Virus record (IMG/VR): IMGVR_UViG_3300045454_000013 | Location: 1-55,517 of that record | Source: a virus | Reading direction: 5' to 3' (one strand) | DNA length: 55,517 nucleotides | Shown: in pieces, positions 3,200 through 55,390 of the stretch | Numbering within the stretch: position 1 is the stretch's first letter | Layout: each line of letters begins with the position of its first letter | Position numbers and translations under genes: made by a program | The notes under the pieces: model-generated | Database searches by the model: none | Told to the model about the DNA's origin: nothing | The model's input: the letters and a program-made list of their open reading frames with translations, nothing else

Positions 3200-3223
3200 G
3201 ATGATTGCCCTTTCGGTGGGGGT

Positions 3224-3568
3224 TCAGTCGAGATTGACTGGGCGCGCGTAGGTGACGCGGCCGTTGTTCATGACCCAGATGCCGTCGCCGCCGATCTCGA
3301 GCAGCTGTGACCACCAGGCGGCGTCGTGGTTGCCGGTCCCGACGAGCGCGTGGGCGATCTCGTGCAGGATGCACTCGCGGACGTTCCGCGCGGCCGTGTC
3401 GAGCAGGTGCTCCCGGGAAAGCACGATCACCCGCGGTTCGATCCAGCACCATCCCGACAAGCCACCGTCGAGCCGGTCACACCACTCGACCCGCCACTCT
3501 TGGAGGCCGTGCTGGTCCATGAGCGTGCGGGCAAGGATCGTGATCACACCCTCAAGCTGTGACGTCAC
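3224..3568 (-). CDS. SprT-like zinc metalloprotease domain protein
   Basis: 114 residues with ILHEIAHALVGTGNHDAAW, an HExxH active site followed by a third His in the SprT-like arrangement. GTG start with upstream GGGAAGG. It is coded just ahead of the endolysin and 23 bp after a hairpin. Eukaryotic SprT/Spartan proteins cut DNA-bound proteins. Small phage homologues are uncharacterised. The substrate is unknown. Confidence 0.7.
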   Translation of the reverse strand: MTSQLEGVITILARTLMDQHGLQEWRVEWCDRLDGGLSGWCWIEPRVIVLSREHLLDTAARNVRECILHEIAHALVGTGNHDAAWWSQLLEIGGDGIWVMNNGRVTYARPVNLD

Positions 3569-3590
3569 GGTGAACCTTCCCGGGAACGAC

Positions 3591-3619
3591 GAAGGCCCCC
3601 ACTGGGGATGGGGGCCTTC
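3591..3619 (-). terminator. Hairpin terminator upstream of the SprT-like gene
   Basis: GAAGGCCCCCA (3591-3601) pairs with TGGGGGCCTTC (3609-3619) around a 7-nt loop. Read leftward it is followed by GTCGTTCC, like the terminator at 1349-1408. It would stop leftward transcripts coming through the antisense strand of the O-acetyltransferase gene. The lysin/SprT pair would then need either readthrough or its own promoter. Confidence 0.6.
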
Positions 3620-3816
3620 GAGAAGTGGTCACGCTCAGCTCGAGCCGTGGGCTCTGTGAGTTTCAAGCGGATCGGGATCGGCTTGAATCTGCACGCTCAG
3701 GATTCAACGAAACCTGAGCTATCGGTGCGTTATGCGACCCGCTTGCTTCTTGCTTCCCGATTAGGTGGGTTTCAGGACTGCAACAATCTGCGTTCGATAG
3801 GTGGAGCGGTCGAAAG
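3620..3816 (+). promoter_or_regulatory. Noncoding upstream region of the O-acetyltransferase gene
   Basis: 197 bp without a convincing gene, visibly richer in A+T than its surroundings. It contains two overlapping inverted repeats: TTGAATC (3683-3689) with GATTCAA (3701-3707), and GCTCAGG (3695-3701) with CCTGAGC (3713-3719). These can form alternative hairpins. A rightward promoter for the acyltransferase must lie here, but I cannot pick -35 and -10 elements with confidence. Confidence 0.4.
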
Positions 3817-4362
3817 GTGGCTACGCTCGGGCGGGTGGACATGCCCCGTCTGAACCGTCTCATCCGTGGTCGAACATGGCGCACCCGCAACCCCGTCTCG
3901 GGGGGTGATCGCGTGGAGCTGTTTGGCCCGGTCCATGTAAGCGCGCCGCATAGCGGCGTCCGCGTGCGCCTCGGTCGGTGGGTCAGGCTCTATCAGGGCG
4001 TCGGCTTCTACCTGGATGCCCCCGGCGCAACGGTGAGCATCGGCGAGGGGACCTACATCAACCGACGCACCGAGATTACCTGTAAGGCATCCGTGACGAT
4101 CGGGGAGCGCTGCGCCGTCTCGTGGGACGTGCTCATCACCGACACCGACTATCACGCCCTCGACGGAACGAGCCCCGTCGCGCCCGTTCGCATCGGTGAC
4201 GATGTGTGGATCGGGGCAAAGGCGATCATCCTCAAGGGCGTGACCATCGGTGACGGCGCGGTGATCGCGGCCGGGGCGGTGGTGTCCCGTGATGTTCCTG
4301 CCGGCGCGCTCGTCGGCGGCAACCCCGCTCGGGAGTTGCGCGCCGACGTGCGTTGGACGTGA
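3817..4362 (+). CDS. Hexapeptide-repeat O-acetyltransferase (lysogenic conversion candidate)
   Basis: About 181 residues with left-handed beta-helix repeats ([55 protein letters not shown]) and the C-terminal GNPARELR typical of the maltose/galactoside O-acetyltransferase family. GTG at 3817 follows GAAAG; ATG at 3841 is an alternative. It runs against the late operon, converges with the tailspike gene (4 bp apart) and has its own upstream region, all features of a lysogen-expressed moron. It probably acetylates a host surface sugar; the substrate is inference. Confidence 0.85.
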
Positions 4363-6202: not shown

Positions 6203-6702
6203 CAGTGGTTCCTTCCCGGTGGGGTTGTCTGTTCAAGATCAGCGCGGAGTTCCGCGTCAGCACGGTGCAGCGCTTTCACGTCGCTCTCGACGGTGTCCAT
6301 GCGGCCGTGGAGCCCTTCGACGCTCCGCGCGATCCTCTCCACGGCCTGCTCGGTGCGGCGGATGCCGTCCTTCGCGGACGTGCCGTCGTTGAAATGCACC
6401 TCGTGGTGAATGTCGGAGACCTTCTTGTCCAACGCGGCATGACGCTGGTCGGCATCGTGGTGCCGCTGATCGGATCGCTCGATGAACTCAGGGAGCCCCT
6501 GAACGGCGGTCAGGATCGCGGCGGCGTTCACGACACCCTTCGCGATCGCGACCGTGCCGGGAAGCACCTTCTTGCCGAGCTTGTAGACGCCCCACCCGGC
6601 CACCACGAACCCGGCGACCCACGCGAGGAACTCCAGGCCGCTTATCGAGCCGAGCCATGACCGGATGGGCTCGGGCAGCCATTCGACCGGACTCGATGTC
6701 AT
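6202..6702 (-). CDS. DUF2746-like membrane protein, possible holin
   Basis: 166 residues: one N-terminal hydrophobic segment (FLAWVAGFVVAGWGVYKLG, ~25-43), a second weaker one, then a long charged helix likely to form a coiled coil with regularly spaced His and Asp (DQRHHDADQRHAALD). ATG at 6702 overlaps the preceding stop. DUF2746 proteins occur in the tail/lysis region of actinophages. A holin or spanin-like role is plausible but unproven. Confidence 0.65.
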   Translation of the reverse strand: MTSSPVEWLPEPIRSWLGSISGLEFLAWVAGFVVAGWGVYKLGKKVLPGTVAIAKGVVNAAAILTAVQGLPEFIERSDQRHHDADQRHAALDKKVSDIHHEVHFNDGTSAKDGIRRTEQAVERIARSVEGLHGRMDTVESDVKALHRADAELRADLEQTTPPGRNH

Positions 6703-8351: not shown

Positions 8352-9968
8352 TCAGCCGATGCGGCGTGCCTTGATGAACCCGGTGTATGTCGGCGAGGCG
8401 TACACGAGGTTCGTGCTCGACGGCCCGCCCAGGGTGATCAGGTCACCGGCCGAGAGAGGGCCGATGTACGACGACGTCGAATAGTTGCTGATTCCGGCGC
8501 AGTGATCGTGCGTGAACAGCCCGCCTGCGTGGGTTTCCAGCTCGGTGCGCGACCCGTCGAGCGCGAGCGTCACGTACACGTCAGCGACATTGCCGCGCTG
8601 GGCGCCCTCGACCTCGTAGATGCCGTCCGCGCCGACCACAATCCCGTGCGCGTTGCTCTCCGCGTCGAGCACACCGCCGCCATCGACCCCGACAGCCCAC
8701 ACGTTCTTGTACGCAGACGCCAGCGACGTCGGCCCGCCCTTCGCCGCCCAATCCGCGGAGAACCCGACCGGGTTCCGTTCCAGGTTCGAGACCCGTGATC
8801 CAAGAGACGACAGGGACCGGTTGACTTGCCCTTCCCAGTCCGTACCGTCCTCATCACCGATCACTGCGGCTGTCGTGACACCATCTGCGGTGACGCCGAC
8901 GATGACCTGATTCAGGCGGGCAGGGATCGGTGTGTCGCCGATCACGATCGTGATCTTCGACCCGAGTGCGTCACGAGCGGCCAGAACGTCGATGGTTTCG
9001 GCCGGTTCGACGGTGAACGAGGACGGAACCCCACCGAGTGCAAGCTCCGCGTCACCTTTGCCCTGCAGTTCGGTCAGATCGTCCGTCTGCCGCTGGTCGA
9101 TGAATTTCGCCGGGCGCCGCTTCCACGCCGCAGCAGCAGCCAGCGAGGCGGTGGAAGTGCGAAGGATGACGGTCCGGTTCACGCCCTGCTCTTGCCCAGC
9201 GACAAGCGCGTGAGTGAGAGACGGAGCGCCGGTGCCGTGCTGAGTGGACTGCAGCTGCTCGTTGTCGATGTCGAATCGCCACTCGCCGGTGCGGTCGACT
9301 GCTTCGCTGATCTGCAGTTCGATGTCGTCGTCGTCGTTCTGCGCGAGGCGAAACAGCATGTCTGTGCCGACGCACATGCCCTGCATCAGCTCAAGGAGGT
9401 TGTCGAAGCGTGGTGATGCGGTGACGGTCGGGCCACGAGATAGCGACGGTTGCAGCACGATCGACTCGTAGAACGTGCCCGTCTTCCGATCAGCAGGCGC
9501 ATCGGGCCCGATGTTGGCTGACACGTAGTAGCGGAGCAGGTCTTCGACGGTGTCGGTCTGGGTGTCGTTCGCGCGAGTCTGAGTGACGTTTCCGTCCTCG
9601 TCGACGTCGTAGGTGCCGGGGTCCGGCCATGCGAGGTCATCGTGGGGGAGGATGTCGTCGGACCACCCGGTGATTGTCCACATTCCGTCCGGGTCTTCGG
9701 TTGTCTGCTCGAGCGCCTCGTAGTCCGTCGGGCCTGAGATCAGCACCCCGGCCGACGTGGTGACGATGATTCCGGCGCCCGGAGCGCGCAGCGCTGTGCA
9801 TGGTGGGAACTCGACGCCGTCGACCTTCGCGGGAAGGATGACCTTCCAGGTGCCGACACCGTTCGCTCGGGGAGCGAAGATCGACCCGACAAGGTGCGCG
9901 GGGTCGATCTGCCACTGCCTTTTGAGGTTCTCGTTCCGTACCTCGACGATGAGATCTTCGACGCGCAT
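8352..9968 (-). CDS. Tail-associated protein, Gp37-like, with receptor-binding-like C-terminus
   Basis: 538 residues. The first ~370 resemble the siphovirus Gp37-like/tail-hub family (opening MRVEDLIVEVRNENLKRQW, with LLRYYVSANIGPDAP). A coiled linker (WEGQVNRSLSSLGSRVSNLE) leads to a ~130-residue C-terminal domain with C1q-like strands (GVDGGGVLDAESNAHGIVV, ending GFIKARRIG). It follows the distal tail gene directly (1-bp overlap), the expected place for the tail hub. Confidence 0.8.
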   Translation of the reverse strand: MRVEDLIVEVRNENLKRQWQIDPAHLVGSIFAPRANGVGTWKVILPAKVDGVEFPPCTALRAPGAGIIVTTSAGVLISGPTDYEALEQTTEDPDGMWTITGWSDDILPHDDLAWPDPGTYDVDEDGNVTQTRANDTQTDTVEDLLRYYVSANIGPDAPADRKTGTFYESIVLQPSLSRGPTVTASPRFDNLLELMQGMCVGTDMLFRLAQNDDDDIELQISEAVDRTGEWRFDIDNEQLQSTQHGTGAPSLTHALVAGQEQGVNRTVILRTSTASLAAAAAWKRRPAKFIDQRQTDDLTELQGKGDAELALGGVPSSFTVEPAETIDVLAARDALGSKITIVIGDTPIPARLNQVIVGVTADGVTTAAVIGDEDGTDWEGQVNRSLSSLGSRVSNLERNPVGFSADWAAKGGPTSLASAYKNVWAVGVDGGGVLDAESNAHGIVVGADGIYEVEGAQRGNVADVYVTLALDGSRTELETHAGGLFTHDHCAGISNYSTSSYIGPLSAGDLITLGGPSSTNLVYASPTYTGFIKARRIG

Positions 9969-10846
9969 CAGCGAACCAGCTCTCGCTGCGGGACGAACCA
10001 GCCTGCGAGCTGAGTGTCGCTGTCAGCGTCGACGAGCACCGCAGTTCCGGCCGTGACACCGACAGGGGCGAGCGGGAACTTCGGCGCGCCGTCGAGGATC
10101 GAGTAGCGGTTCTCCCCGTCCTGGTCCGTGACAGTCCACCCCCGCCCAGCTGTGTACTCGATGGAGATGACCTCATCGGTTTCCACCGCGGTTGCGAGGC
10201 TGAACCCACGGCCGCCGACGACCACTTCGGACCCGATCCCGGCGGGACCGGTGAGACGCCACTGGATCGGGACGGGCTCGTCGCCGGGGTTCTCGACGGT
10301 GAACGCGCCCGTCGCCGTCGATCCGGTCAGGGGCATCACCGTCAGGTACGGGATCAGGCCGTGTCGTTCCCCGCTCGCGGCCACCTTGGGAAGCTCAACA
10401 GGCTTCTCTCGTACCCACAGCGGTTGCGGGCACCGCACGCTGATCATCCAGGTGAGTAGACGGTCTCCGCCGCTGTCGTAGCTGTCCTCTCCGCCGTCAT
10501 CGCGTACGAAGGGGAGTCGCCACGTCTCGCCGCCGGCGTACCGGGCGACAAGAGTCGGTGATGAGCTGGTCCGCAGCACGGCACCGAGGGCCCGTGCTTT
10601 CGTCTCGACGTCGGCGCGGTCGGTGCCGTGGACCCGGATCACGAGAGTCGCGTCCCGCATCGCCCGGCGCGACGACACGACCCGCCCGCCGCCGGCCGCT
10701 GATTCGCGGAACGTCACGACCTCAGGGGGAAGACCGAGACCGGACGTCCCTTTGCCGAAACTGTACGAGCCGGTCTCTGTTCCTTCGGATGCGAACTCGA
10801 GCGGTGCGCTCACCGTGGACTCGATGCTGAACGCAGGGTTACCCAC
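9968..10846 (-). CDS. Distal tail protein (Dit-like)
   Basis: 292 residues encoded immediately after the tape measure gene, with an 8-bp overlap. It has the split beta-sandwich composition of siphovirus Dit proteins (TLVIRVHGTDRADVETKARALGAVL; C-terminal PIQWRLTGPAG and GGRGFSLA). Position and fold-like features agree. It likely connects the tail tube to the Gp37-like hub. Confidence 0.8.
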   Translation of the reverse strand: MGNPAFSIESTVSAPLEFASEGTETGSYSFGKGTSGLGLPPEVVTFRESAAGGGRVVSSRRAMRDATLVIRVHGTDRADVETKARALGAVLRTSSSPTLVARYAGGETWRLPFVRDDGGEDSYDSGGDRLLTWMISVRCPQPLWVREKPVELPKVAASGERHGLIPYLTVMPLTGSTATGAFTVENPGDEPVPIQWRLTGPAGIGSEVVVGGRGFSLATAVETDEVISIEYTAGRGWTVTDQDGENRYSILDGAPKFPLAPVGVTAGTAVLVDADSDTQLAGWFVPQRELVR

Positions 10847-13800
10847 CGGCCACCCCCGTTCCCGTCTGCAACCGGATCTCGAGTTCCTTTACGCCGCGCT
10901 TGAGCTGCGAAGCGATCGACTCTCCCGGCCGAGGGGTGAGGCTCGCGTGCAGGTGCACGTCTCCGCCTCGCGGTGCCAGGGTTGCTGCAGCAGCCGATAC
11001 GAGGTGCGGTGATCGGGGACCGATCGGGGTGATCTCTCCACCGTTCGCGTACCGCAAAGCGCCGTCGAGGATCGCGCGGCGAAGACGGTAGATGCCCGCG
11101 TGCCCGCCGGCAGCGTTCACCTCGTTGGTGGGGATCATGTGCTCGCCGTTGGAGGCGAGGATCGGCACGGAATCCGATGTGCCCGTGCCGGGGCCCATGA
11201 TCGGGCCGCCGCCGGCGAAGCCTGTCCTCCCGACCGTGGACGTCGGTATCCCGGTCGTCGAGATGAATACAGTACGGGACCGCGCGAGCCGGGTCAGCTC
11301 CTCCTCGACAGAGCGGAATGATCCGTCATCCTTCGCAACCTTCACCGTACCTGCCGGCAGAGACGTGATGTCGACACCGAGCGCGGCAAGCGCCTCCTTC
11401 AGGAACGGGAAGTCATCGCTCGATACCTCAAACTCCTTGTCCGGGGTGTCGATGATCTGCTGCGCCAGGTCGACCAGGCGCAGCCGGTTCGCGTCGATTG
11501 TGCCGTCGTCGGTGAGTGCAAATGCCACAACAGACGGGGTCGCGAGCATCGTGTCAATGAGACCCTGCACCTGCTCGTCAGACAGCCCCGAGTCGTGCCC
11601 GATCTGCCACAGCTTGTCGATGTACGGCTGCGCGGCATCCGCGGCCTCCTGCATCGAAGCACCCTTACGACCATCGGCCTTCGCTGACTCATCAGCGAGG
11701 ATGATCGCATCCAGCATCTGGTCGTTCAGCCGGTCGACCTCGTCATACAGCGAGCGGCCAGCGGCGGTCGTCGTGTCGATCTCTCCCGACGCGGACACAA
11801 GCGAGGCGGCGAGCTTGTTGCCTGCCTCGTCCGTCTGGGAGAACACCTCACGGAGCCGATCCGCCTGCTCGTTGAGATCACGAGTCTGCTCGGCTTGGGA
11901 TTTCGTAGGACCGTTCAGCTCGTCGAGTGCCTGCTTCAGCGCCTTCAGCCGCTCGGTGGCGTCGTTCGACACGTCCCTTGCGATCGCGAGCGCTTCGTTC
12001 ATCCGCGTGTTGGACCGCTCAGTCTCAGTCATCGCGGCGGCCGCGGCGCGCTGCTCCTCGTTGTAGAGGCGCTGCGCTTCCTGCGCCGCGAGCACTGCCG
12101 CGCGTTCCTCCTCGAACCGCTCACGCAGATTCTTGATCGCGTCAGACCGCAGAGTAGCCACAGCTTGCCCAGTGCGGGAGCCTTGCTTCTCGGCGTCCTC
12201 CAGCTCCCGAAGACGCTCAATCAGCCGCTCGTAGGAGTCCCCACCCTGCGAAACTGCCGCCGCGAGGTCGACGGTCGACACGCCGAGCTTCTGGACGATC
12301 TCCAGGCCCTTCTCCTCCTCGAGACGCTTCCGCGCAAGAGCAGTGGTAGCGCGCAGCGTTGACGCGGTCGTCTCGTCGAGTGTCTCCCGATAGCCATCGA
12401 TCCGTTCGCGGGTTTCCGTGGCTTCCTGTCCTTGCGCCGACAGCGCGGCGGTCAGCACCGCGGCTGCGGTGGACACGCCGAGGATGATCAGTCCCACGGG
12501 GTTCGAGACGAAAGCGGCCTTGAGGCTGTTGCCGAACCCGGTGGCGGCGCGCCCTGCGACTCCGAACGCGCCCGCGAGCCGGGAGGTGTTCCCCTCCATG
12601 CCGGCGAGAGCGGCTTGCACTGCGGCTTGCTCGGCGAGCCGACGCCAGCCGTCAAGCCAGGACTGGATCGCGGGCGCACCGGCTCGAAGCGCGCTATTCA
12701 CCGCGAGGGCAGCGACGACAGTCGCGAGCATCGGCGCGGGGATCGCGTCGATGACGTCGACGAGCGGACCAGCGACCGCGGTGACAAGGCGGATGCCGCT
12801 TGCCACGACAGGTAGTGCCGCGTTCAGCGCTCCCGAGACGACCTCGGCGAGATCTCCAGCGACAGGGATCAGAGGCTTCATCTCGTCGAACAGGCCGGCG
12901 AGTTCCTTCCGGACCTCGGGAGAGGCCAGCGCGACGCCGCCGAGGATGCCGCCGAGGGGGCTGATCGCGGGGATGAGCATGCCAACGATAGGCAGCTGGC
13001 GCAGCAGGGCAGAGTTCAGGCCGATAACCGCGCCGGCTGTGGCGGCGATCGCGGGGCCGTTAGCGGCAACGTCTTCGAGGAAGCCCTCAAGGCGTGACGG
13101 ATTCCACGAGTTCACGGTGACCCTCGCGCGGTCGAGAATCGCGGTCATGTCCGCGAATGCCGGGTTCGCGCGGGTCGTGAGGATGGTGACCACGGGCGTG
13201 ACTTGCTTCTCGACTGCGCGGAGCACGTCGGCGACCTGGTTACCCCAGGTCACTGCGAGACCGCCGCCGTTCTTCGACACGAACGGTTCCGCGAGAGCGG
13301 CGCCGATGTCGCGGGAAGCGGCCCGGATCCGGTCGACGGTGCCGGTGAACGTGTTCTTCACGTTCGACGCGGCGCCCGCGTACCGCTGCTCCATACCGAC
13401 GACGAGGGCGTCGAGCGCTGCCCGAGCGTCGAGGGTGCCGCCGGTGATCTCCTCACGGATCTCGTCGGCGGTCTTGCCCATGCCGGCGCCGATCATCGAC
13501 GCCGCGTCAAGGCCCCGCTGGCCGAGCTGCAGCAGATCCTGCCCGGTGATCTTCCCCGCCGCCTGGATCTGGGCGAGGATGAACACGATGTCGCCGAGTT
13601 CCTGCGACGAGCCGCCGGTCGCGGCGACCGCGTTCTGCACAGCGTTGAGGGTCGGGATGACCTTCTGAGCTTCGAGACCGAACCCGATGAGCTGCTGCTG
13701 CGCGGTGATGAACACCGACTTCGAGAACGGCGACGTCCTCGCGAACGCGTCCAACCGGTCCATCTGCGCGTTGGCTTGCTGCGCGCCACCCAGGAGGGTC

Positions 13801-14066
13801 GCGAGCGCCGCGCGGGACGTCTGCTGCAGCGTGTTGTACGCGACACCGGTCGAGAGCAGCTTCGCGAGCAAGACGCCGGCGGCGACGCTCGTGACTCCGA
13901 TCGCAGCCGATGCGCCAGTGAACGCCGCTTTGGCCGCACGGCCCACCTTCGCGGCGGCCGTGTCGGTGCGCTCGAGGTTGCCGCGGACAGTATCGAGGTC
14001 GCGGCCGACCTTCTCAAGGCCGTCGAGTCGGATAGTGGCGACGAGCTCGGCGGCGTTGAACGACAC
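10839..14066 (-). CDS. Tape measure protein
   Basis: 1075 residues, the longest gene, directly after the tail chaperone pair. The N-terminal region has the conserved block DAFARTSPFSKSVFITAQQQ and ELGDIVFILAQIQAAGKITG. Several hydrophobic stretches lie at ~350-395, ~425-460 and ~520-550, and a long coiled-coil region at ~555-760 is rich in Ala, Glu and Arg. At about 0.15 nm per residue it predicts a tail near 160 nm. Start ATG at 14066 is 3 bp beyond the chaperone stop. Confidence 0.95.
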   Translation of the reverse strand: MSFNAAELVATIRLDGLEKVGRDLDTVRGNLERTDTAAAKVGRAAKAAFTGASAAIGVTSVAAGVLLAKLLSTGVAYNTLQQTSRAALATLLGGAQQANAQMDRLDAFARTSPFSKSVFITAQQQLIGFGLEAQKVIPTLNAVQNAVAATGGSSQELGDIVFILAQIQAAGKITGQDLLQLGQRGLDAASMIGAGMGKTADEIREEITGGTLDARAALDALVVGMEQRYAGAASNVKNTFTGTVDRIRAASRDIGAALAEPFVSKNGGGLAVTWGNQVADVLRAVEKQVTPVVTILTTRANPAFADMTAILDRARVTVNSWNPSRLEGFLEDVAANGPAIAATAGAVIGLNSALLRQLPIVGMLIPAISPLGGILGGVALASPEVRKELAGLFDEMKPLIPVAGDLAEVVSGALNAALPVVASGIRLVTAVAGPLVDVIDAIPAPMLATVVAALAVNSALRAGAPAIQSWLDGWRRLAEQAAVQAALAGMEGNTSRLAGAFGVAGRAATGFGNSLKAAFVSNPVGLIILGVSTAAAVLTAALSAQGQEATETRERIDGYRETLDETTASTLRATTALARKRLEEEKGLEIVQKLGVSTVDLAAAVSQGGDSYERLIERLRELEDAEKQGSRTGQAVATLRSDAIKNLRERFEEERAAVLAAQEAQRLYNEEQRAAAAAMTETERSNTRMNEALAIARDVSNDATERLKALKQALDELNGPTKSQAEQTRDLNEQADRLREVFSQTDEAGNKLAASLVSASGEIDTTTAAGRSLYDEVDRLNDQMLDAIILADESAKADGRKGASMQEAADAAQPYIDKLWQIGHDSGLSDEQVQGLIDTMLATPSVVAFALTDDGTIDANRLRLVDLAQQIIDTPDKEFEVSSDDFPFLKEALAALGVDITSLPAGTVKVAKDDGSFRSVEEELTRLARSRTVFISTTGIPTSTVGRTGFAGGGPIMGPGTGTSDSVPILASNGEHMIPTNEVNAAGGHAGIYRLRRAILDGALRYANGGEITPIGPRSPHLVSAAAATLAPRGGDVHLHASLTPRPGESIASQLKRGVKELEIRLQTGTGVAGG

Positions 14067-18515: not shown

Positions 18516-19433
18516 TCAGGAGCCGGCCGCGTCGGCGCCCTTGATGAGCACGGCGCGTGCCGCGTCGAGCGTCTTCACGCCGTACAGGACGTCGAGCGAA
18601 ACGACATCCTTCTTCTTGGTGATGTCGTAGTCGAAGACCACGCGGATGCCGAAGCCCTTGTAGCTCATGATCGCCGCGTTCTGGGCTCCCTGCGGGAGCT
18701 CGAGCTGGCGGGTCACGAGGGCGACGGCGGTGCGGTGGAACGCGACCGACACCTCGGTCGTCGGGTCGCCCGGGTCGGGGGAGACGGCGGGCTGGCCGAT
18801 GTTCTGCGACATGTACGCGTCGAAGCCCCACAGGTTCGCGCCGATGGAGCCCTGACGCAGACCGGCGGTCGTGCCCGACTGGTCAGCGCGCTTGAGAAGG
18901 TCGTTCTCAAGCCACTTGCCGCGGGTGCGGGGGCCGACGATGACGCGGCGGTCGACGGCGGGGACGTTGTTCACGTCCAGCTCGACGCCCGCGGCGATCA
19001 GCGACTCCGGGTCGGACCAGAGCGCACCGCTGACGGTGCCGACCTCGGTCGTGATGTCGTCGCGGAACGACAGGACGTCGCGGTCGATCTTCTGCGAGAT
19101 CGCCTCCATCGCCGGGTTCAGCAGCTGAGCGGCGAAGTCGCTGATCTTCAGCGCCAGATCCTTCGACGTGACCTGGAACGACACGTCCGCGTGGTGGTTC
19201 AGCACCACGGACACGCCCGTCTCGGTCGCGTTCTGGATGGTGATGCCGTCCGCCTCCACGAACTCCTCCGCTTCGAACACGGCGGGCTTGCGGATCGTGA
19301 CGGTATCGCCGACCGCGCCGACGAACTCGGTGTCGTAGTCGCGGTAGACGAGCTGCGCGGCGACCGTGTTCTCGTACAGGGTCGCGAGCGCGGCCTCTGC
19401 GATGATGCTCGGGGTGAGCAGGGTGTTGGCCAT
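18516..19433 (-). CDS. Major capsid protein (P22 coat-like)
   Basis: 305 residues beginning MANTLLTPSIIAEAALATLY. The pattern YRDYDTEFVGAVGDTVTIRKP, an N-terminal antiparallel region, a helix LKISDFAAQLLNPAMEAISQ and the C-terminal ITKKKDVVSLDVLYGVK fit the P22-type coat family. It follows the scaffold gene by 27 bp and has the best ribosome-binding site of the head module (AGGAGAAAGGGCCACC). Confidence 0.92.
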   Translation of the reverse strand: MANTLLTPSIIAEAALATLYENTVAAQLVYRDYDTEFVGAVGDTVTIRKPAVFEAEEFVEADGITIQNATETGVSVVLNHHADVSFQVTSKDLALKISDFAAQLLNPAMEAISQKIDRDVLSFRDDITTEVGTVSGALWSDPESLIAAGVELDVNNVPAVDRRVIVGPRTRGKWLENDLLKRADQSGTTAGLRQGSIGANLWGFDAYMSQNIGQPAVSPDPGDPTTEVSVAFHRTAVALVTRQLELPQGAQNAAIMSYKGFGIRVVFDYDITKKKDVVSLDVLYGVKTLDAARAVLIKGADAAGS

Positions 19434-22092: not shown

Positions 22093-23745
22093 TCAGTCCT
22101 CCGGGGGTGTTTCGCCGGCGGCTTCCGCTTCGATCCGGGCACGCATCCGCGCGATGTCGTCCGGGGTCGGTTCCGTTCCTGGCAGTCCCGTGACCTTCGT
22201 CGGGTCGGCGGCGGTGCCGATGCCCTGCTCCTTGTAGATCCGCGCGACCTCATCGTTGACCGTGTCGCCGTCCCACTCGGGGTGGTGCATACGGACACCG
22301 GTCTCGACCGACAGCAGGTTCGCGGCGCGCATCGCCGCCGTGGTTCGTGCCATCTTCTCCTGGTCGACCTGCGACTCGGCGGGGAACCGGAACTCGGGTT
22401 CCTCCTCCAGACTCTTTCCGCCGTACACTGCGGCGTCGAGCTGCATCCACGTCAGCAGGAACGGGGTGATCGTCTTCCAGTAGTTGATCTTCTTGTCGCG
22501 GGTCCGCTCAGAAAGGCGCTCGTCTGCGTGTACCTCTGTCGCGGTTCGCAGACCTTCGCCCTCGCCGCCGGCGGACGCGGGAGTCCAGCCAGCGGAGCGC
22601 ATAGCCTGATCGCGGAGCTCCTGCACGGTCTGCGAGTGCTGCTCCGTGCGGATCTCGAACTGATGCGCGTGGAATCCGAACGGTTCACCATTGGGGCCAG
22701 TGAGGGTGTTCATGCCCTCGTACACTTCACGGTCGTAGTCGAACATGGCACCCTGCCCGAGCCCACCGGACTGGAGGTACTGCTTCGCGACGACGATGCG
22801 GGCCTTCGCGATGCGAATGTCACGCATCCACGACGACCACACCTCATCGATCGCGTCGAACAGCTGCACGATGTCGGCGAAGTCGGACTGGCCCAGACGA
22901 GCGAGCGCCGGCTTCTTCCGGAACTGCTTGTTCGGCCGCATGTTCGGGATGTATGTCGCCGTGAGCCCCTGCACGCCGGTGGGCATGGCGGAGTTCTCGT
23001 CGAGGATCCCGGGAGCGGCCAGCCAGGCCGTGTCGGGATGCTCGCTGACCGGCAGTCGGGTTCCGAGACGGTCCTCGGTTCCTTGGAACAGGCCGTGCTC
23101 AATGCGGCCTCGTTCGTGGAGTTCGAGGTGCCGCCATACGAAAGCGTCGTCGTTGACGTTCCGCAGCTGCGTCCAGAAGATAACCGACTCAAGGTCGCCG
23201 AATCGGAACGTCGGAATCGCGGCGTCCGCGTGAACGATCTCCGCGCGAGGTGCGCGCAGGTACTCCCGTGACCACACGAGGCGGAGGTAGACGCCGCCAA
23301 GCGCGGCCGCGACCTCTCCCGCTTCGAGCAGCGTGGAGTGGAACCGGGGAGTGTTGATGACCTTCTCGACACGGTCCTGCAGCCGGTTCCGTTCGGTGGT
23401 GGCTGAGTCTGATTCGGAGTCGGCGCCGCCCCGGTCGCCGGGGACCACGACGCGGGGTGCTTCACCGAACAGGTAGTCAGCCGACAGGGTCGCAATGTCC
23501 GCGGCGAGCGGGATGTGGAGGCGGGTGCGCGCCTCACCGGCTGCGGGCGGGCGCCCCAACCACGCGCGAGTGCCCCAGCCGACGAGCCCACCGTTGTACT
23601 GCGCACGGTGAGTGATCGGCTGGTTCATGTACCGGGCCTGCAACTCCTCGACATGGCCCTTGTACCAGGAGTCGTACTCCTCGACCTGCTCGAAGTAGGG
23701 GTCGAATTCCTTCGGGGGCCACGGGACGTTACCGGGAAGCGGCAT
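22093..23745 (-). CDS. Portal protein
   Basis: 550 residues. SPP1-type portal features: PLAADIATLSADYLFGEAP, a long central region with FDAIDEVWSSWMRDIRIAKARIVV, then a helical wing-clip/stem region including LRTATEVHADERLSERTRDK. The length and the position between a glycosyltransferase and the MuF gene are typical. It overlaps the upstream glycosyltransferase by 17 bp. Confidence 0.93.
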   Translation of the reverse strand: MPLPGNVPWPPKEFDPYFEQVEEYDSWYKGHVEELQARYMNQPITHRAQYNGGLVGWGTRAWLGRPPAAGEARTRLHIPLAADIATLSADYLFGEAPRVVVPGDRGGADSESDSATTERNRLQDRVEKVINTPRFHSTLLEAGEVAAALGGVYLRLVWSREYLRAPRAEIVHADAAIPTFRFGDLESVIFWTQLRNVNDDAFVWRHLELHERGRIEHGLFQGTEDRLGTRLPVSEHPDTAWLAAPGILDENSAMPTGVQGLTATYIPNMRPNKQFRKKPALARLGQSDFADIVQLFDAIDEVWSSWMRDIRIAKARIVVAKQYLQSGGLGQGAMFDYDREVYEGMNTLTGPNGEPFGFHAHQFEIRTEQHSQTVQELRDQAMRSAGWTPASAGGEGEGLRTATEVHADERLSERTRDKKINYWKTITPFLLTWMQLDAAVYGGKSLEEEPEFRFPAESQVDQEKMARTTAAMRAANLLSVETGVRMHHPEWDGDTVNDEVARIYKEQGIGTAADPTKVTGLPGTEPTPDDIARMRARIEAEAAGETPPED

Positions 23746-27931: not shown

Positions 27932-29254
27932 TTAGGCTGCGAGGCTGAAGTCGCCGACAAGCATCGGACGCCACAGGTCCTCCGTGGTCGCGATCACGTA
28001 CCGTCCGCCGTCGAGCGAGTGGTCGTTGATCTTCACGGGCTCGTCGACGCCTTCCTTCGCCTTCTTCGGATCCCACGAGTACCCGGGCGCTTCAGCGATG
28101 AACCCGGGGCAACGATCAGACACCACGAGGCGGCGCTCGGCGAGCAGCGAAGCCATCGTCGAGATCCCGTAGCCGACCTTGTTCAGACCGCCAGCGGTGG
28201 GAATGCCGATCAGATTCAGTTCCTTCTGGAAGTGCAACGCCGCAGGGTCAACGATGAAGTACTCAGGCTGCAGCGCGGTCTCGTACGGCAGGTGCGGGGT
28301 CCGCAACCACTCCTTGAACAGCGCGGCCTGCTCCGACGGTGCGACCGTTCCGGTTCCCTCACGGCGGCCGTTGTACCGCCACTCGTCAACGAGGTACAGG
28401 CGAGACCGCGTGCGACGCCGCTCGTCCTTCTCGAGCGACACGCCCAGCATCAGACCGGTCGAAGGATTGTTCGTGCCGAAGTCCATCCCGACACCGATGA
28501 GACGCTGCATCTGCGGCAACGACTCCCACGGCACCACGTGCGAAGCCGGGTCCCACATGTCGAAGATCGCGCCTTCCGCAGCGACCCACAGACCCTCGAT
28601 CCACCGCTTGTACCAAAGCCCCGTGTACTGGCCGCGCAACCGCGCCTTCACCCGGTCCGTCAGCGACGGGTTGTCATCCATCGTGAAATGGAACCGCCGC
28701 CAGTCAGGGAGCTTCCGCAGCCGGTCAATGTAGTCGACCTTCAGCCAGTGCGCCGGCGAATCCGGGTTCGTCGTCGCGAACAGCTTCGACTCGTCCAGCG
28801 ACATGCGGTTCAGGATCTGCTTGAACGCCGACTCCTCCAACACGGTGACCTCGTCGACGTACACCGCGAGGATCGTCATCCCTCGGATCTTCCCCTCAGC
28901 GCGAGAGTCGTTGATCCCGATGACCTGCACCTGATGACCAAGAATGTGAGCCACCGGCGCGTTCTGCGTGTACCGAACCGCGCCCTTGAAAGCCCGCAAC
29001 CCCGGCGAATCGTTGATCGTCGCGAAGAAGTTCCGGTAGATCGACCCGAGATTCTTCCCCACGATCACCAACTGACCGCCAGCCGCCGTCTCATCATCGA
29101 GACCAGCCAAGAACAGCAAGAACGCGAGGACAGACACGTACGTCTTCCCGCCGCGGATCGACCCCTCCCACAGGTTGAACGTCGCCGCGGGCTGCAAGCA
29201 CGCGTGAAGCGAGCGCGCCTGATTACGCCCCAGAGTCGCCGTCGCCCGACTCAT
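27932..29254 (-). CDS. terL: Terminase large subunit (PBSX-like)
   Basis: 440 residues. N-terminal ATPase with an atypical Walker A (EGSIRGGKTY, ~30-39) and Walker B LAVYVDEVTVL; coupling motif ATTNPDSP. The C-terminal nuclease domain has GVGMDFGTNNPSTGLML and FIVDPAALHFQKEL, matching the Terminase_3/3C (PBSX) family. Its start overlaps the small subunit by 32 bp. It drives genome packaging. Confidence 0.95.
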   Translation of the reverse strand: MSRATATLGRNQARSLHACLQPAATFNLWEGSIRGGKTYVSVLAFLLFLAGLDDETAAGGQLVIVGKNLGSIYRNFFATINDSPGLRAFKGAVRYTQNAPVAHILGHQVQVIGINDSRAEGKIRGMTILAVYVDEVTVLEESAFKQILNRMSLDESKLFATTNPDSPAHWLKVDYIDRLRKLPDWRRFHFTMDDNPSLTDRVKARLRGQYTGLWYKRWIEGLWVAAEGAIFDMWDPASHVVPWESLPQMQRLIGVGMDFGTNNPSTGLMLGVSLEKDERRRTRSRLYLVDEWRYNGRREGTGTVAPSEQAALFKEWLRTPHLPYETALQPEYFIVDPAALHFQKELNLIGIPTAGGLNKVGYGISTMASLLAERRLVVSDRCPGFIAEAPGYSWDPKKAKEGVDEPVKINDHSLDGGRYVIATTEDLWRPMLVGDFSLAA

Positions 29255-29696
29255 CAGACTCGAAGCCGCCCTCAGGCTGCCCGTAACTGTCTCCCGCGCC
29301 GAACAGGTCCTTCAAGCCGCCAGCGAAGTCCAGCAGCGCCTTCCGAACCTCCGCGCCCGTGTCATCCGCCTTGTGGTCGTACAGGCCGAGCAGCCGAGCG
29401 CGCTGGTCCATGATCTTCAGCGCGCGGTCCACGGAGAAGTTGTCGCCGTTGCGGGCGGACTCGTAGAGACCGGCGAGCATGTCGTCGAGGCGGAGCAGCT
29501 CAAGCTCGAGAAGTTCGGTCGCGGATTCGCGGGTGATGTCTCGGAGTGCTTGCTGCACGGCCCTGTGTGCGCTGCCCTTGTTGGTGTATCCGACCTCGGC
29601 TGCGATGTCTTCGAATGCCCAGCCGGCGCGGCGCAGGTCGAGTGCCTGCTTCCGCTTCTCAGCGGCGGTCGCTTTCCGTTCGGTTGCGTTCACCAT
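29223..29696 (-). CDS. terS: Terminase small subunit
   Basis: 157 residues. An N-terminal helix-turn-helix (LDLRRAGWAFEDIAAEVGYT, ~20-40) for pac/cos recognition, a central helical oligomerisation region (ITRESATELLELELLRLDDM) and an acidic Gly/Asp-rich tail. It is directly upstream of the large subunit. Confidence 0.88.
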   Translation of the reverse strand: MVNATERKATAAEKRKQALDLRRAGWAFEDIAAEVGYTNKGSAHRAVQQALRDITRESATELLELELLRLDDMLAGLYESARNGDNFSVDRALKIMDQRARLLGLYDHKADDTGAEVRKALLDFAGGLKDLFGAGDSYGQPEGGFESDESGDGDSGA

Positions 29697-30122: not shown

Positions 30123-30166
30123 GAGAGCCCCAGAGGAGATGTGGGGGTCGATCCTCTGGGGCTCTC
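30123..30166. terminator. 15-bp perfect stem-loop in the late leader genes
   Basis: GAGAGCCCCAGAGGA (30123-30137) pairs perfectly with TCCTCTGGGGCTCTC (30152-30166) around a 14-nt loop. It lies in the 74-bp gap before the 97-residue gene. The leftward strand has no U-tract after it, so it may be an attenuator or an RNase processing site. Confidence 0.5.
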
Positions 30167-31041: not shown

Positions 31042-31286
31042 GATGCGCGCTCCATGGTCTCGTCGTCGATGTGCGCTGCCGGGATGCCTGCGAGGGCTGC
31101 GCGCGCTTCATCCGCGGTGTCGAACCTTGCCGCTCGGACTGATCCGGCGCTCTCTGAGGTGCGGGACGCGCCGCTGAGAGTCACGGCGTATCCGGTGACT
31201 GGCCATCCGCTCTGAGTCGGATCATGCAGCGGCACGATTCGGTAGGTGAGTATTCCCTGGCCGGAGGCGGGGAGTCTGACGCTCAC
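31038..31286 (-). CDS. 82-residue protein, unknown
   Basis: GTG 31286 overlaps the PP-loop gene stop (GTGA). Opens with SVRLPASGQGILTYRIVPLH; contains a beta strand pair (GYAVTLSG) and a short helical part (DTADEARAALAGI). No domain recognised. Confidence 0.6.
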   Translation of the reverse strand: MSVRLPASGQGILTYRIVPLHDPTQSGWPVTGYAVTLSGASRTSESAGSVRAARFDTADEARAALAGIPAAHIDDETMERAS

Positions 31287-32014
31287 GACGCGGCCGCCAC
31301 GTCGGCTCGGAACAGCTCGAGATCCGCGAGTGGGAACCAGTCGAGGATGCGGTGAAAGTCGTCGGGTGCGTGGTCGCGAATGGGGCCCAGGAATCGGTGG
31401 TCGATGCCATCGAACGAACGGCCGAACCACTGGTAGTCGACGGGGAGGTGGATACCGGCCGCGGCGATGCGGTCGAGTACTTCGCTCTTGAGCCAGTCCG
31501 CGATGGGGGACACCTTGTGGTCGCGGGGTTTGAGGATGCCGTGGCGGGTGAAGCTTGCGCGGCGGACGATGCTGTCAGCTGCGCGGACGCCGTCAGCGAC
31601 CCAGGTGTCTTCGGGGAGGCTGAGTTCGCGGCGGATCAGCGCCCACATGACCTTGTAGTCGGGGGTGGGGAGTCGGGCTGCTTCGATGACCTCGCACCGT
31701 TCAGGGGGCTGGAACACGAAGTTGTTCAGCCACCGGTAGAACGATGGGTGCGGGTAGCGGTGGATCGGCTTCCCCAGTGCGCGCTCAAGGTCGGTGAGGC
31801 CCTGCTCGACGAACTCGAGTGTGTGGCCAGGCCGGCGGCCCGGGATGTAGTACAGGTACACCAGCTCGGTGGTCACGCCCGCATCCTGCAGCGCGAGCTC
31901 AGTCGCGATCGCATCCTTGCCGCACGAGAACGCAACGAGCACAGTCCTACCCTCAGCGGCGAGCTGCGCACGGACCTCAGCGCTTGTCGGCTGACCCTTG
32001 ATCACAGTGGGCAT
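31283..32014 (-). CDS. PP-loop ATPase, PAPS-reductase/DndC-like
   Basis: 243 residues. The PP-loop is LVAFSCGKDAIATELAL (~26-42), a variant of SGGKDS with Ala at the last position. Downstream blocks YLYYIPGRRPGHTLEFVEQG and DGVRAADSIVRRASF match the PAPS reductase/N-type ATP pyrophosphatase fold. It activates a substrate through AMP transfer. Without DndB, D or E or cysteine-synthesis partners nearby, the substrate is unknown; nucleotide or DNA modification is plausible. It starts at a TGATG junction as second gene of the late operon. Confidence 0.8.
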   Translation of the reverse strand: MPTVIKGQPTSAEVRAQLAAEGRTVLVAFSCGKDAIATELALQDAGVTTELVYLYYIPGRRPGHTLEFVEQGLTDLERALGKPIHRYPHPSFYRWLNNFVFQPPERCEVIEAARLPTPDYKVMWALIRRELSLPEDTWVADGVRAADSIVRRASFTRHGILKPRDHKVSPIADWLKSEVLDRIAAAGIHLPVDYQWFGRSFDGIDHRFLGPIRDHAPDDFHRILDWFPLADLELFRADVAAAS

Positions 32015-32223
32015 CAGACGGTCTCCAACTCGACGGCATCGAACCGGTCGGCGATTCGGGCGGCGGTGCGCTCGGCGCGGGCACGGGTCGGGTATCGGTC
32101 CGCGGCGGCTATGTCGAGAGTGAGCGAGTATTTCGCGCGGAGGTCGAGACCGACCTCGGTGTGGAGGTATCCGGTCTCGCCGCGGGTGGTGACCAGGATC
32201 CGGGTGGGAGCCTCAGTGGACAT
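32014..32223 (-). CDS. 69-residue first gene of the late operon
   Basis: MSTEAPTRILVTTRGETGYL to FDAVELETV. The C-terminal half is helical and basic (TRARAERTAARIADRF). The ATG lies only 3 bp beyond the nested palindrome and has no ribosome-binding site, so translation may begin on a leaderless or nearly leaderless mRNA. Function unknown. Confidence 0.7.
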   Translation of the reverse strand: MSTEAPTRILVTTRGETGYLHTEVGLDLRAKYSLTLDIAAADRYPTRARAERTAARIADRFDAVELETV

Positions 32224-32226
32224 GCG

Positions 32227-32272
32227 GATAGTCTACATAGTAGACGCTAAAAGGTCTACTATGTAGACTATC
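32227..32272. promoter_or_regulatory. Nested-palindrome divergent promoter/operator
   Basis: A perfect inverted repeat with 19-bp arms (32227-32245 and 32254-32272) and an 8-bp spacer GCTAAAAG. Each arm contains its own palindrome, GTCTAC-N3-GTAGAC, giving two operator sites. TACTAT, a good -10, occurs on both strands (32257-32262 rightward; 32242-32237 leftward), each 13-14 bp from the start codon it would serve. No -35 of TTGACA type is visible, which suggests activator dependence. It controls the late operon leftward and the HTH block rightward. Confidence 0.85.
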
Positions 32273-32276
32273 GAGT

Positions 32277-32480
32277 GTGTACGATGTGGACGGTAGCCTA
32301 GATGGCATGGCATCCGCTCTGTCCCAGCTCGCGCGCATAGCTCGCGAAGCATCCAGGCGACCCGACCTCATCGCGCAAGCCCGAGAGGAAGGCGCGACAT
32401 GGGATCAGATAGCCGAGGCGCTGCAGATGAGCAGAGCGGGAGTGATCAAGCTGCACGGGAAGCGGCCGAACGCAAAGTAG
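32277..32480 (+). CDS. Small HTH protein, candidate regulator at the late promoter
   Basis: 67 residues from GTG 32277, 4 bp beyond the palindrome (ATG 32307 is an alternative). The C-terminal half is a clear helix-turn-helix: GATWDQIAEALQMSRAGVIK. With no Shine-Dalgarno it may be leaderless. Position suggests autoregulation through the palindromes and control of the divergent late operon. Confidence 0.75.
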   Translation: MYDVDGSLDGMASALSQLARIAREASRRPDLIAQAREEGATWDQIAEALQMSRAGVIKLHGKRPNAK

Positions 32481-32815
32481 ACGCGATCCTGGCCGAGATC
32501 GATCTCGATGCAGCCGATAAGAAGCGCGCGTACCTGGCGGAACAACATGATCCTTCGATGCCATATCTGGTCTATCGACTGTTCGACCACGACTGGAGCG
32601 TGGCGTACGTCGGCGCAACGCGGGACTTCATGGCCCGGATGCTCGCTCATATGGCCACCCGCTGGTGGGTAGACATTGACGTCGAGGTGATCGTCACCGA
32701 GAAATTCGGATCGGCCGAAGATGCGGCCGAACGGGAGCAGGAACTGATAGCGATACTCGCGCCCCGCCACAACGTCGAAGGCAATGGACGACGGAAGTAC
32801 CGCAGCTACAGGTGA
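32399..32815 (+). CDS. GIY-YIG-like nuclease domain protein
   Basis: 138 residues. A charged helical N-terminus (~15-50) precedes a GIY-YIG-like core: YLVYRLFDHDWSVAYVGAT (Y-x-V-Y...A-Y-V-G), an Arg-containing helix (RDFMARMLAHMATRWW) and a later Glu/Asn block (EREQELIAILAPRHNVEG). The first 82 bp overlap the HTH gene in the -1 frame, so either an internal start or a -1 shift linking HTH to nuclease is possible. It could act in DNA cleavage, phage exclusion or homing. Confidence 0.7.
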   Translation: MGSDSRGAADEQSGSDQAAREAAERKVDAILAEIDLDAADKKRAYLAEQHDPSMPYLVYRLFDHDWSVAYVGATRDFMARMLAHMATRWWVDIDVEVIVTEKFGSAEDAAEREQELIAILAPRHNVEGNGRRKYRSYR

Positions 32816-52450: not shown

Positions 52451-52630
52451 TCAGGCCGCGAGAACGCGGCAACGGGTCGCGGCGAAACGCTGGGCGATCT
52501 CTTCCGGCGGTGGCCCGCCGGGCCGCCATGCGCGGGCCGCAGCTTCCGCGGGTGTGAGGGTGTCGAGGATTCGGCCCTGCTCGACGACGAGCGCGGAGAC
52601 TTCGCTGAGCGCTTGCTCGAGGGTCTTCAT
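52451..52630 (-). CDS. 59-residue early protein
   Basis: ATG 52630 sits in a TGATG overlap with the Cro-like stop. MKTLEQALSEVSALVVEQGR and AARAWRPGGPPPEEIAQRFA; helical. Unknown. Confidence 0.6.
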   Translation of the reverse strand: MKTLEQALSEVSALVVEQGRILDTLTPAEAAARAWRPGGPPPEEIAQRFAATRCRVLAA

Positions 52631-52878
52631 CACGCCACCGCCCGGACCTTCGCGGGCTTGTCGGTGACGATGTCGAACGCTTCGCCGAGGCCGAAGCCGA
52701 ACGCTTCGCAGAACCCGGCCATGAACGCGCCGGACGGCTGGGCGCCATCGAGCACGACCCGGCGGAGAGTCGACCGGTCCACACCGATCAGGCGGGCGAA
52801 CGCATCCTCGGACTGGATGCCCCGCGACTCTCGCAGCCGGTCGACAATGCCCGGCTTGATACGGATCGACGCCGCCAT
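52630..52878 (-). CDS. Cro-like HTH regulator, first early gene
   Basis: 82 residues from ATG 52878 with GGGGAGGTAAG upstream. IKPGIVDRLRESRGIQSEDA, then FARLIGVDRSTLRRVVLDGA form a lambda-repressor-like helix-turn-helix. It diverges from the repressor and starts the leftward early operon, the Cro position. Confidence 0.82.
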   Translation of the reverse strand: MAASIRIKPGIVDRLRESRGIQSEDAFARLIGVDRSTLRRVVLDGAQPSGAFMAGFCEAFGFGLGEAFDIVTDKPAKVRAVA

Positions 52879-53047: not shown

Positions 53048-53494
53048 ATGCCACCCACTCTGACTGAGTACTTCCTGCGCGCCTCGGGCGCCCGCAGCAT
53101 CCGCGCTGTCGCGCGAGCCATCGACATGGACCAATCCACGCTCCGCCGCCAACTCACCGGCACCAACGCGCTCCCCGTCGAAACCGTGGTCGCGATCTGC
53201 CGGGCCTTCCGGATCCCCCTCGCGGACGCCTTCGTCGCCGCCGGGTACATCACCGAAGAGGAAGCCAAGACCATCGGATCTGACCGGAGCCTTGCAGCCG
53301 CGACCGACCGGGAACTCACCGCCGAAATGGTCCGCCGCCTCAACAGAGGGGAAGCAGGCCCTGACATCACCGACCCGATCAGCGACGAGATCATCCGCGA
53401 CGCCATCCCTTACATCGGCCCCGCCGCCGTGCCAGATCAGATCGCCGCCGACACCCGGCCCCGCAAAGGCGACGAACCGCCCGTGGCGGAGTGA
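53048..53494 (+). CDS. Immunity repressor (HTH)
   Basis: 148 residues. SIRAVARAIDMDQSTLRRQL, then TGTNALPVETVVAICRAFRI form the XRE-type helix-turn-helix; the C-terminal part has DITDPISDEIIRDAIPYIGP and a basic/acidic tail. No LexA-like protease domain; together with the adjacent ImmA-like protein this suggests relief by a separate protease. The in-frame ATG at 53000 would add 16 residues. Confidence 0.85.
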   Translation: MPPTLTEYFLRASGARSIRAVARAIDMDQSTLRRQLTGTNALPVETVVAICRAFRIPLADAFVAAGYITEEEAKTIGSDRSLAAATDRELTAEMVRRLNRGEAGPDITDPISDEIIRDAIPYIGPAAVPDQIAADTRPRKGDEPPVAE

Positions 53495-53523: not shown

Positions 53524-53976
53524 ATGACGAACCAGGGACGCCTCAAGCAGCTCGTCGCACGGGCAGCGGAAATGGGAGTCAGCGTGCACATCGCGCACCT
53601 GCCCCCGCCGTACCGCGGTTTCTACGAGCACGAAGCCCACCGGATCGTGCTGGACTTCACCCTCACCCCGAACGAGCAAGCCTCGGTGCTCGCCCACGAA
53701 CTCGGGCACGCCCACCACGGTCACGCCTGCGAGGGCAACGCTGATGCCGAGCGGCTCGCCGACACCTACGCGGCGATGCTCATGATCGACCCCGATGACT
53801 TCGCGGCCGCCGAACGCATCAGCAGCGACCGGCACTTCCTCGCCGACGAGCTCAACGTGACCACCGAACTGATCGACGCATACCGTGCGCACTGCCTGAC
53901 CCGCCTCCGCGGCGTCACCTACGCGCGACCCCGGATGGGTGTCCGGCAATGGGCATACCGGAGCTCAAATGCGTAG
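53524..53976 (+). CDS. ImmA/IrrE-like metallopeptidase
   Basis: 150 residues from ATG 53524 with GAAGG upstream (GTG 53491 overlapping the repressor stop is an alternative). QASVLAHELGHAHHGH holds the HExxH site and AERLADTYAAML the third ligand region. ImmA proteins cleave phage repressors during induction (known for ICEBs1). Encoded between repressor and integrase. Confidence 0.88.
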   Translation: MTNQGRLKQLVARAAEMGVSVHIAHLPPPYRGFYEHEAHRIVLDFTLTPNEQASVLAHELGHAHHGHACEGNADAERLADTYAAMLMIDPDDFAAAERISSDRHFLADELNVTTELIDAYRAHCLTRLRGVTYARPRMGVRQWAYRSSNA

Positions 53977-55390
53977 GCTCCGCGCCGCGACCGACTCGCC
54001 GCTCCGCGCGGTGATCTACCTGCGGCAATCGCACTACCGCGAAGAATCCATCAGCCTTGAACTGCAGGAACGCGCGTGCCGCGACTACTGCGATCGCCTC
54101 GGCTATGTCGTCGTAGCGGTCGAAGCCGACCCGGGGATCTCCGGGCGCACATGGAACCGTCCCGCCGTGCAACGGGTCATGACGGCGATCGAGAACCGGG
54201 AAGCCGACGTCGTCGTCCTCTGGAAATGGTCACGGCTATCCCGGTCCCGGAAGGACTGGGCGCTCGCTCTGGACCGGGCCGACCTCGCCGGCGGCCGCAT
54301 CGAATCAGCGACGGAACCGATCGACACCGCAACCGCGTCTGGCAGGTTCGCTCGAGGCGTCATGACCGAGTATGCCGCGTTCCAGTCCGAGCAGATCGGC
54401 GAACAATGGGAGGAAGTGCGGCAGCGGCGCCTCAGGCTCGGGCTCCCCGCATCGGGACGTCTCCCGTATGGATGGAACTGGACGGCGGACGGCATCGCGC
54501 CGGACCCCGAGCAAGCGCCGGTCGTCGTCGAGATGTACGCCCGCTACCTCCGCGGATCCGGGTCTGCCGAGATCGCACGCTGGCTGAACCAACGATCCAT
54601 CCCCGGACCGAACGGCACGCCGTGGACGCGAGCGCGGCCATTGACCGTCATGGACTCACCGATCCACGCAGGCCTGATCCCGTACCGGGGCGAGACCTAC
54701 CCCGGCGCGCACGACCCGATCATCGACGACGCCACGCGAGCCGCCTACCTCCGGGAACGCGCACGCCGGCGGCGGCAGTCAGAGAAGCCACGGCCGGGCA
54801 CATACCTGCTGTCTCTGCTCATGGTCTGCTCGTGCGGATCCCGCATGGCCGGGAAGGGGGCCGTGACCGGGGGTCGCTGGTACGGCGGATACCTGTGCGG
54901 CGCGAAATCCACCGCGATCGACCACCCCGGCGCCGCCTACATCTCAGCGCTCCGCATCGAACCAGCCATCGAAGCGTGGGCGCTCTCATTCGAGATCACC
55001 GGAACAGACTCCAGCGGCTCCCGAGCAGCCGACTCCGCCCGGCACGACAGGCTCCTCCGTCAGCTCTCACAGCTCGAAGACGAAGCCGCGCAGGTGCTCC
55101 GCGACCGCGGCCGCGGCGACGCGCCACCAGCTACCTACGACCGTGCACTCGCGATGATCGACCAAGACCGCACCAGACTCACCGCCGAGATAGCAGCGGC
55201 AGCGCAAGCCATCGCCGCCGCACCGGACCCCGCCGCCGTGTACGAGATGCGCGCGGACTGGGAATTCTGGCCCACTAGCGAGCGCAACAGGGCACTGCGC
55301 TCTCTCATCGAACGAATCAAGCTTGCCGCCGACGGCTCGGCCGCCACCATCCACACCGTCGGGGGAGCCTCGTCCATCGTGCACTGGTGA
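53969..55390 (+). CDS. int: Large serine integrase
   Basis: 473 residues from ATG 53969 (CCGGAG upstream; overlaps the ImmA gene by 8 bp). The resolvase domain has VIYLRQSHYREESISLELQE with catalytic Ser21, and VVLWKWSRLSRSRKD. The recombinase domain includes VVEMYARYLRGSGSAEIARW then LNQRSIPGPNGTPWT, followed by a zinc-ribbon region (VCSCGSRMAGKG, GYLCGAK) and a coiled coil (QLSQLEDEAAQVLRDRGRG). Its stop codon abuts attR. It catalyses attP x attB integration; excision needs a directionality factor not identified here. Confidence 0.95.
   Translation: MRRLRAATDSPLRAVIYLRQSHYREESISLELQERACRDYCDRLGYVVVAVEADPGISGRTWNRPAVQRVMTAIENREADVVVLWKWSRLSRSRKDWALALDRADLAGGRIESATEPIDTATASGRFARGVMTEYAAFQSEQIGEQWEEVRQRRLRLGLPASGRLPYGWNWTADGIAPDPEQAPVVVEMYARYLRGSGSAEIARWLNQRSIPGPNGTPWTRARPLTVMDSPIHAGLIPYRGETYPGAHDPIIDDATRAAYLRERARRRRQSEKPRPGTYLLSLLMVCSCGSRMAGKGAVTGGRWYGGYLCGAKSTAIDHPGAAYISALRIEPAIEAWALSFEITGTDSSGSRAADSARHDRLLRQLSQLEDEAAQVLRDRGRGDAPPATYDRALAMIDQDRTRLTAEIAAAAQAIAAAPDPAAVYEMRADWEFWPTSERNRALRSLIERIKLAADGSAATIHTVGGASSIVHW

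Follow-up and report, generated by a model that had tools for sequence, protein, structure and literature searches.

In the window analysed here (one whole IMG/VR virus record of 55,517 nucleotides), we found an array of 15-bp palindromic sites that most probably act as operators within a divergent promoter pair, with the adjoining small HTH protein as their cognate autorepressor. The carriers of this arrangement are a group of uncultured actinobacterial viruses, in which the HTH protein probably switches off its own gene together with the neighbouring genes. The sites lie at the spacing of a -35 and a -10 hexamer, making the locus a compact candidate for a switch with an explicit operator/promoter code. 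The features of the window are collected in Table 1.

Table 1. Features of the window that bear on the predicted switch
Feature	Position	Strand	Remarks
Tape measure	10839-14066	-	
Major head protein	18516-19433	-	
Portal	22093-23745	-	leftward of large terminase
Large terminase	27932-29254	-	
Probable small terminase	29223-29696	-	from position and the terminase small subunit annotation in several relatives
PAPS-reductase-like protein	31283-32014	-	second leftward gene; phrog_2302, E=1e-30
First leftward gene	32014-32223	-	69 aa; no family assigned; other phages have another gene here
Perfect inverted repeat	32227-32272		19-bp arms, 8-nt spacer; holds two operator-like sites
Leftward -10, TAGACT	32230-32235	-	6 nt from ATG 32223; invariant in five loci
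Site 1, GTCTACATAGTAGAC	32231-32245		overlaps leftward -10; conserved in L005, L008, L009, L025
Rightward promoter R1, TAGACG-17-TAGACT	32241-32269	+	mirror of leftward promoter; 7 nt before GTG 32277
Leftward -35, TAGACC	32253-32258	-	17 bp from -10
Site 2, GTCTACTATGTAGAC	32254-32268		overlaps leftward -35 and R1 -10; conserved in four other loci
Rightward promoter R2, TCGAGT-17-TAGCCT	32271-32299	+	weak -35; 7 nt before ATG 32307
Degenerate site 3, GTGTACGATGTGGAC	32277-32291		2 mismatches; 2 nt before R2 -10
Small HTH protein, predicted autorepressor	32277-32480	+	phrog_686, E=3e-6; nine homologous loci
GIY-YIG endonuclease-like protein	32399-32815	+	overlaps HTH reading frame; L005 homologue in same place, 41% identity
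Cro-like protein	52630-52878		
Repressor-like protein	53048-53494		
Integrase	53969-55390		

Site array and promoter hexamers

An earlier note on this DNA had described a 46-bp perfect inverted repeat. The two 19-bp arms (32227-32245 and 32254-32272) are indeed perfect, but the 8-nt spacer between them is non-palindromic, and the 46 bp as a whole do not form a perfect palindrome. The repeat is the longest in the 55.5-kb window, where the runner-up has arms of 15 bp, and is beyond chance, the longest arm in 15 Markov samples being 13 bp. As the note also stated, each arm contains its own GTCTAC-N3-GTAGAC palindrome, and these two copies are the only exact ones in the whole IMG/VR record. A third, degenerate site, absent from the earlier note, extends the array with an exact 23-bp period (site starts at 32231, 32254, and 32277) and sits where relatives keep a start-proximal site, the equivalent in locus L008 being GTGGATGAAGTAGAC.

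Two sites 23–24 bp apart occur in five loci (the window, L005, L008, L009, and L025), and the invariant columns in their alignment are concentrated in the sites. This period equals a 17–18-bp spacer plus one hexamer, so that the sites contain the -35 and -10 hexamers of the leftward promoter. TWGAC and TAGACT, separated by 17 or 18 bp, are found leftward in all five loci, followed exactly 6 nt on by the start codon in four of them. The -35 reads TAGACC in the window, TAGACA in L005, TTGACG in L009, and TTGACA in both L008 and L025. In L008, L009, and L025, this arm deviates from symmetry, from GTAGAC to GTTGAC, towards the consensus TTGACA, which argues that the arm works as a -35. The impression that no -35 is visible in the window thus did not hold, though its TAGACC/TAGACT pair agrees with the consensus at only 8 of 12 bases (10 of 12 in L008) and a stock promoter scan of the window at a stricter threshold (9/12) called no promoter. 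TACTAT, previously taken as the -10 on both strands, does lie 13–14 nt from the start codons, but we rejected its -10 role because relatives have TACTTA, TACTAA, TACTCA, or TACAAA at this position, whereas TAGACT is invariant in the five loci.

On the rightward side, promoters like R1 are also present in L008 (with an 18-bp spacer) and L005. The start of the HTH gene is ambiguous between GTG 32277 and ATG 32307, each with a TANNNT 7 nt upstream, giving proteins of 67 and 57 aa, respectively; homologues share the start position corresponding to ATG 32307. TANNNT precedes the start codon by 6–7 nt in 10 of 10 HTH genes, with a shuffle probability of 0.01–0.05 per locus, the product of which is not a strict p-value because the loci are partly related (L012/L013 are 81% and L014/L015 88% identical) and do not represent ten independent lineages. 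The same layout is found in four of the five divergent genes, and a Shine-Dalgarno sequence is missing at both start codons of the window, as noted earlier. The position of TANNNT ahead of all ten HTH starts predicts leaderless mRNAs; both mRNAs of the window would begin at, or 1–2 nt from, the start codon. In Mycobacterium smegmatis, SigA prefers TANNNT as its -10, and leaderless transcripts make up about 24% of the total (PMC6448022). The loci resemble such leaderless SigA promoters of actinobacteria in having TANNNT 6–7 nt before ATG or GTG without a Shine-Dalgarno sequence (PMC6448022), but differ from them in that both members of a divergent pair are of the leaderless type and their hexamers are part of the operator-like sites.

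The HTH family and its neighbours

The HTH protein is predicted to consist of four helices (residues 4–16, 19–27, 32–39, and 43–51) with moderate confidence (mean pLDDT 76). A search against solved structures returned weak, generic HTH matches, none at E<=0.001, and there was no Pfam match at or above the cut-off and no NCBIfam match near it. Relatives are rare: they were found in one of 50,697 phage records (MT837769), in no plasmid, and in 1 of 399 and 0 of 396 genomes of two actinobacterial orders at E<=1e-10, a strict cut-off that would miss weaker relatives, with the second genome search run without a positive control. Further members came from viral and genome contigs, resulting in nine loci beyond the window (L005, L008, L009, L012, L013, L014, L015, L016, and L025), of which L025 belongs to Mycolicibacter acidiphilus.

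All nine carry related, sometimes degenerate, sites directly upstream of the HTH gene, with a single degenerate site in each of L012–L015. The sites adjoin homologues that were retrieved by protein sequence, the site sequence not being a criterion; L005 was retrieved by the palindrome alone and then found to encode an adjoining HTH gene. The palindrome pattern by itself was discarded as a search tool, as most of its matches lack an HTH gene and lie inside reading frames. The expectation that the same palindrome would stand beside HTH genes elsewhere was borne out in L005, which has both HTH and GIY-YIG genes, and in L008, L009, and L025, and this recurrence supports the proposal that the putative regulator is encoded beside its own divergent operator/promoter.

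Site and putative recognition helix appear to covary within this rare family. Members with an MSRAGV/A helix have GTCTAC-type sites. The helix reads MTRHGV or MTRQGV in L014/L015, where the site is GTAAACTCAGTTACC, and MTRVGA in L016, which has GTATAC/GTAAAC-type sites, GTATACCGACTATAC and GTAAACTGTGTATAC, 46 bp apart. Given the few lineages, we consider this covariation suggestive.

Leftward of the repeat, the genes for terminase, portal, major head protein, tape measure, and an endolysin-like protein are all on the minus strand, confirming the virion operon recognised earlier. Together with the repressor pair and integrase at 52.6–55.4 kb, this places the palindrome at the head of the virion genes rather than in an immunity switch, and we dismissed a CI/Cro-type switch because the repressor-like, Cro-like, and integrase genes lie about 20 kb away, which puts the immunity switch of this phage at 52.6–53.5 kb. 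Rightward, the reported overlap between the HTH and GIY-YIG genes stands, provided that ATG 32399 is the start; the "MG[ST]DSR" beginning is partly forced by the HTH frame and is therefore not independent evidence for this start. The GIY-YIG-like protein scores 21.9 bits against a Pfam cut-off of 22.6, with a motif reading LVY...YVG, while its L005 homologue is above the cut-off at 36.9 bits. Replication-type genes (helicase, DnaB, SSB, and RecT) follow further right on the minus strand.

The gene order recurs to varying extents. L034/L008 is syntenic with the window (PAPS reductase 82%, small terminase 68%, large terminase 73%, portal 65%, and head protein 80%), with a different first leftward gene and no GIY-YIG gene after the HTH gene. 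In L005, the HTH and GIY-YIG genes are ordered and overlap as in the window, and terminase and portal genes lie on the far side of the sites. In L016/L032, a locus in a Micrococcales MAG, a PAPS reductase gene (70%) adjoins the sites. A GIY-YIG gene as constant partner was rejected, since it is present only in the window and L005 and is missing after the HTH gene in L008. BigBern1, CA1NRNZ, and Cafasso, which encode a PAPS reductase and in which no HTH homologue was found, have no sites in the stretches read upstream of the gene or operon, and the cassette is therefore optional.

The earlier designation as head of a late operon accordingly fits the gene order of the window, L034/L008, L005, and probably L016/L032, that is, up to four phages whose virion genes follow, or probably follow, on the leftward side, but it is not general. 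The genes divergent from the HTH gene are early-type in L009, and in L012–L015 the gene after the HTH gene is small and lipoprotein-like, and both lie among structural (tail or lysis) genes. A late switch therefore describes some phages without defining the module, which is more probably a portable autoregulated promoter cassette, with a late-gene role probable only where it is placed at a late operon.

Several minor observations concern these neighbours. The label "Rnase E" that PHROGs gives to the small terminase of the window seems to be an annotation error that has been passed on. The linear genomes of GenBank relatives begin, at their left end, with the small terminase as gene 1. The packaging end may therefore be situated immediately to the right of 29696, in which case the leftward promoter would read across it after circularisation. 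A hairpin with 15-bp arms and a 14-nt loop lies upstream of the small terminase gene (30123-30166) and has a counterpart of other sequence in L034 (approximately 9620-9655); it is possibly a packaging-end element or a terminator. In L014, the end of the lipoprotein-like gene (3166-3440, minus strand) resembles the C-terminus of the neighbouring, probably tail, protein (3437-4081, minus strand), and the lipoprotein-like protein might be a superinfection-exclusion decoy.

Probable repression of both promoters and its alternatives

Because the sites overlap the -35 and -10 hexamers, they are most simply read as repressor operators, and the HTH protein most likely represses both promoters. Presumably as a dimer, it would bind the GTCTAC-N3-GTAGAC sites spaced 23–24 bp apart and block RNA polymerase at the leftward promoter, whose -35 and -10 lie within the sites. 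Its own rightward promoter would also be blocked, by a site that either fills the spacer between -35 and -10 or overlaps the -10. The PAPS reductase, terminase, and virion genes would then stay off until the HTH protein is absent, titrated, or inactivated.

A different division of labour is a real possibility, though we hold it to be short of probable: both strong leaderless promoters could fire on infection as a pulse, as in Aca systems, producing the first leftward genes and the GIY-YIG protein before the HTH protein silences them; transcription of the virion genes would then rely on a separate promoter or a different mechanism. The small HTH autorepressors known as Aca proteins have their inverted repeats in the core promoter, in some cases more than one (PMC9410906). 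A brief pulse would suit the first leftward gene, which is different in each phage, as well as the lipoprotein-like gene that follows the HTH gene amid structural genes in L012–L015, the early-type genes divergent from it in L009, and the conserved hairpin between PAPS reductase and terminase. Against it, neither the interval from 29.5 to 32.2 kb of the window nor the equivalent 3 kb of L034 yielded a further leftward promoter-like pair, and the order operator-PAPS-terminase-portal-head is kept in L034, as is operator-terminase-portal in L005. The approximately 2.5 kb and the hairpin before the terminase may nevertheless leave room for termination or another promoter. Aca genes usually lie behind the regulated gene (PMC9410906), whereas here the regulator comes first.

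An activating role of the HTH protein at the leftward promoter, exerted for example from site 2, is unlikely, as is a dual role in which low concentrations activate and high ones repress. Lambda CI behaves in the latter way, and the sub-optimal hexamers of the window and the sites at several positions would be in line with either role. However, site 1 overlaps the -10 itself, the L008 and L025 promoters with their consensus -35 and 18-bp spacer should need no activator, and spacers of 17–18 bp do not suggest a MerR-type mechanism. Least probable is that the palindrome serves a structural purpose in DNA or RNA (as a terminator or as a site of recombination or replication) or is bound by an unrelated host regulator: the perfect repeat, longest in the window, would suit such an element, but it has no T-run, the divergent flanking genes need no terminator, the integrase gene is 21 kb distant, DNA-only pattern matches without an HTH gene lie mostly within reading frames, and other phages also have the sites next to a member of this HTH family, with site sequences that vary along with the protein.

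Relation to known regulators

The repressor reading shares with Aca systems the small phage HTH protein (here 57–67 aa, a phrog_686 HTH with four predicted helices), inverted repeats within the core promoter (predicted here, and degenerate in L012–L015), predicted autorepression, and occurrence with small accessory genes in mobile elements (PMC9410906). It is a likeness by layout, with no homology to any named family detected for the HTH protein, and the differences are a divergent instead of a single promoter, a regulator gene that comes first, and no known anti-CRISPR gene nearby. As in the CI/Cro lysogeny switches, the predicted operators adjoin a regulator gene and are common to two back-to-back promoters; unlike there, the window has a separate repressor pair with an integrase, and terminase and virion genes follow on the side away from the regulator gene.

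To our knowledge, the activation of virion genes in actinophages is poorly understood, and in the literature searched we came across no account of such a regulator. We tentatively suggest that some temperate actinophages keep their late genes silent through a second, dedicated repressor that is separate from the immunity repressor and whose operators coincide with the promoter hexamers; late transcription would then possibly start when a leaderless housekeeping-type promoter is derepressed, without a late activator or antiterminator. The family offers a route to other cassettes with this kind of autoregulation and to their accessory genes, and could supply actinobacteria with a small pair of repressible leaderless promoters.

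Promoter-like matches of the same layout also occur in L039 and L041, where no convincing HTH homologue was found (best E=0.0035 in L039). The L039 match (6176-6204, minus strand) reads TTGACA-17-TAGACT-7-ATG, contains GTCTACCGAGTAGAC, and represents either independent use of the layout or chance.
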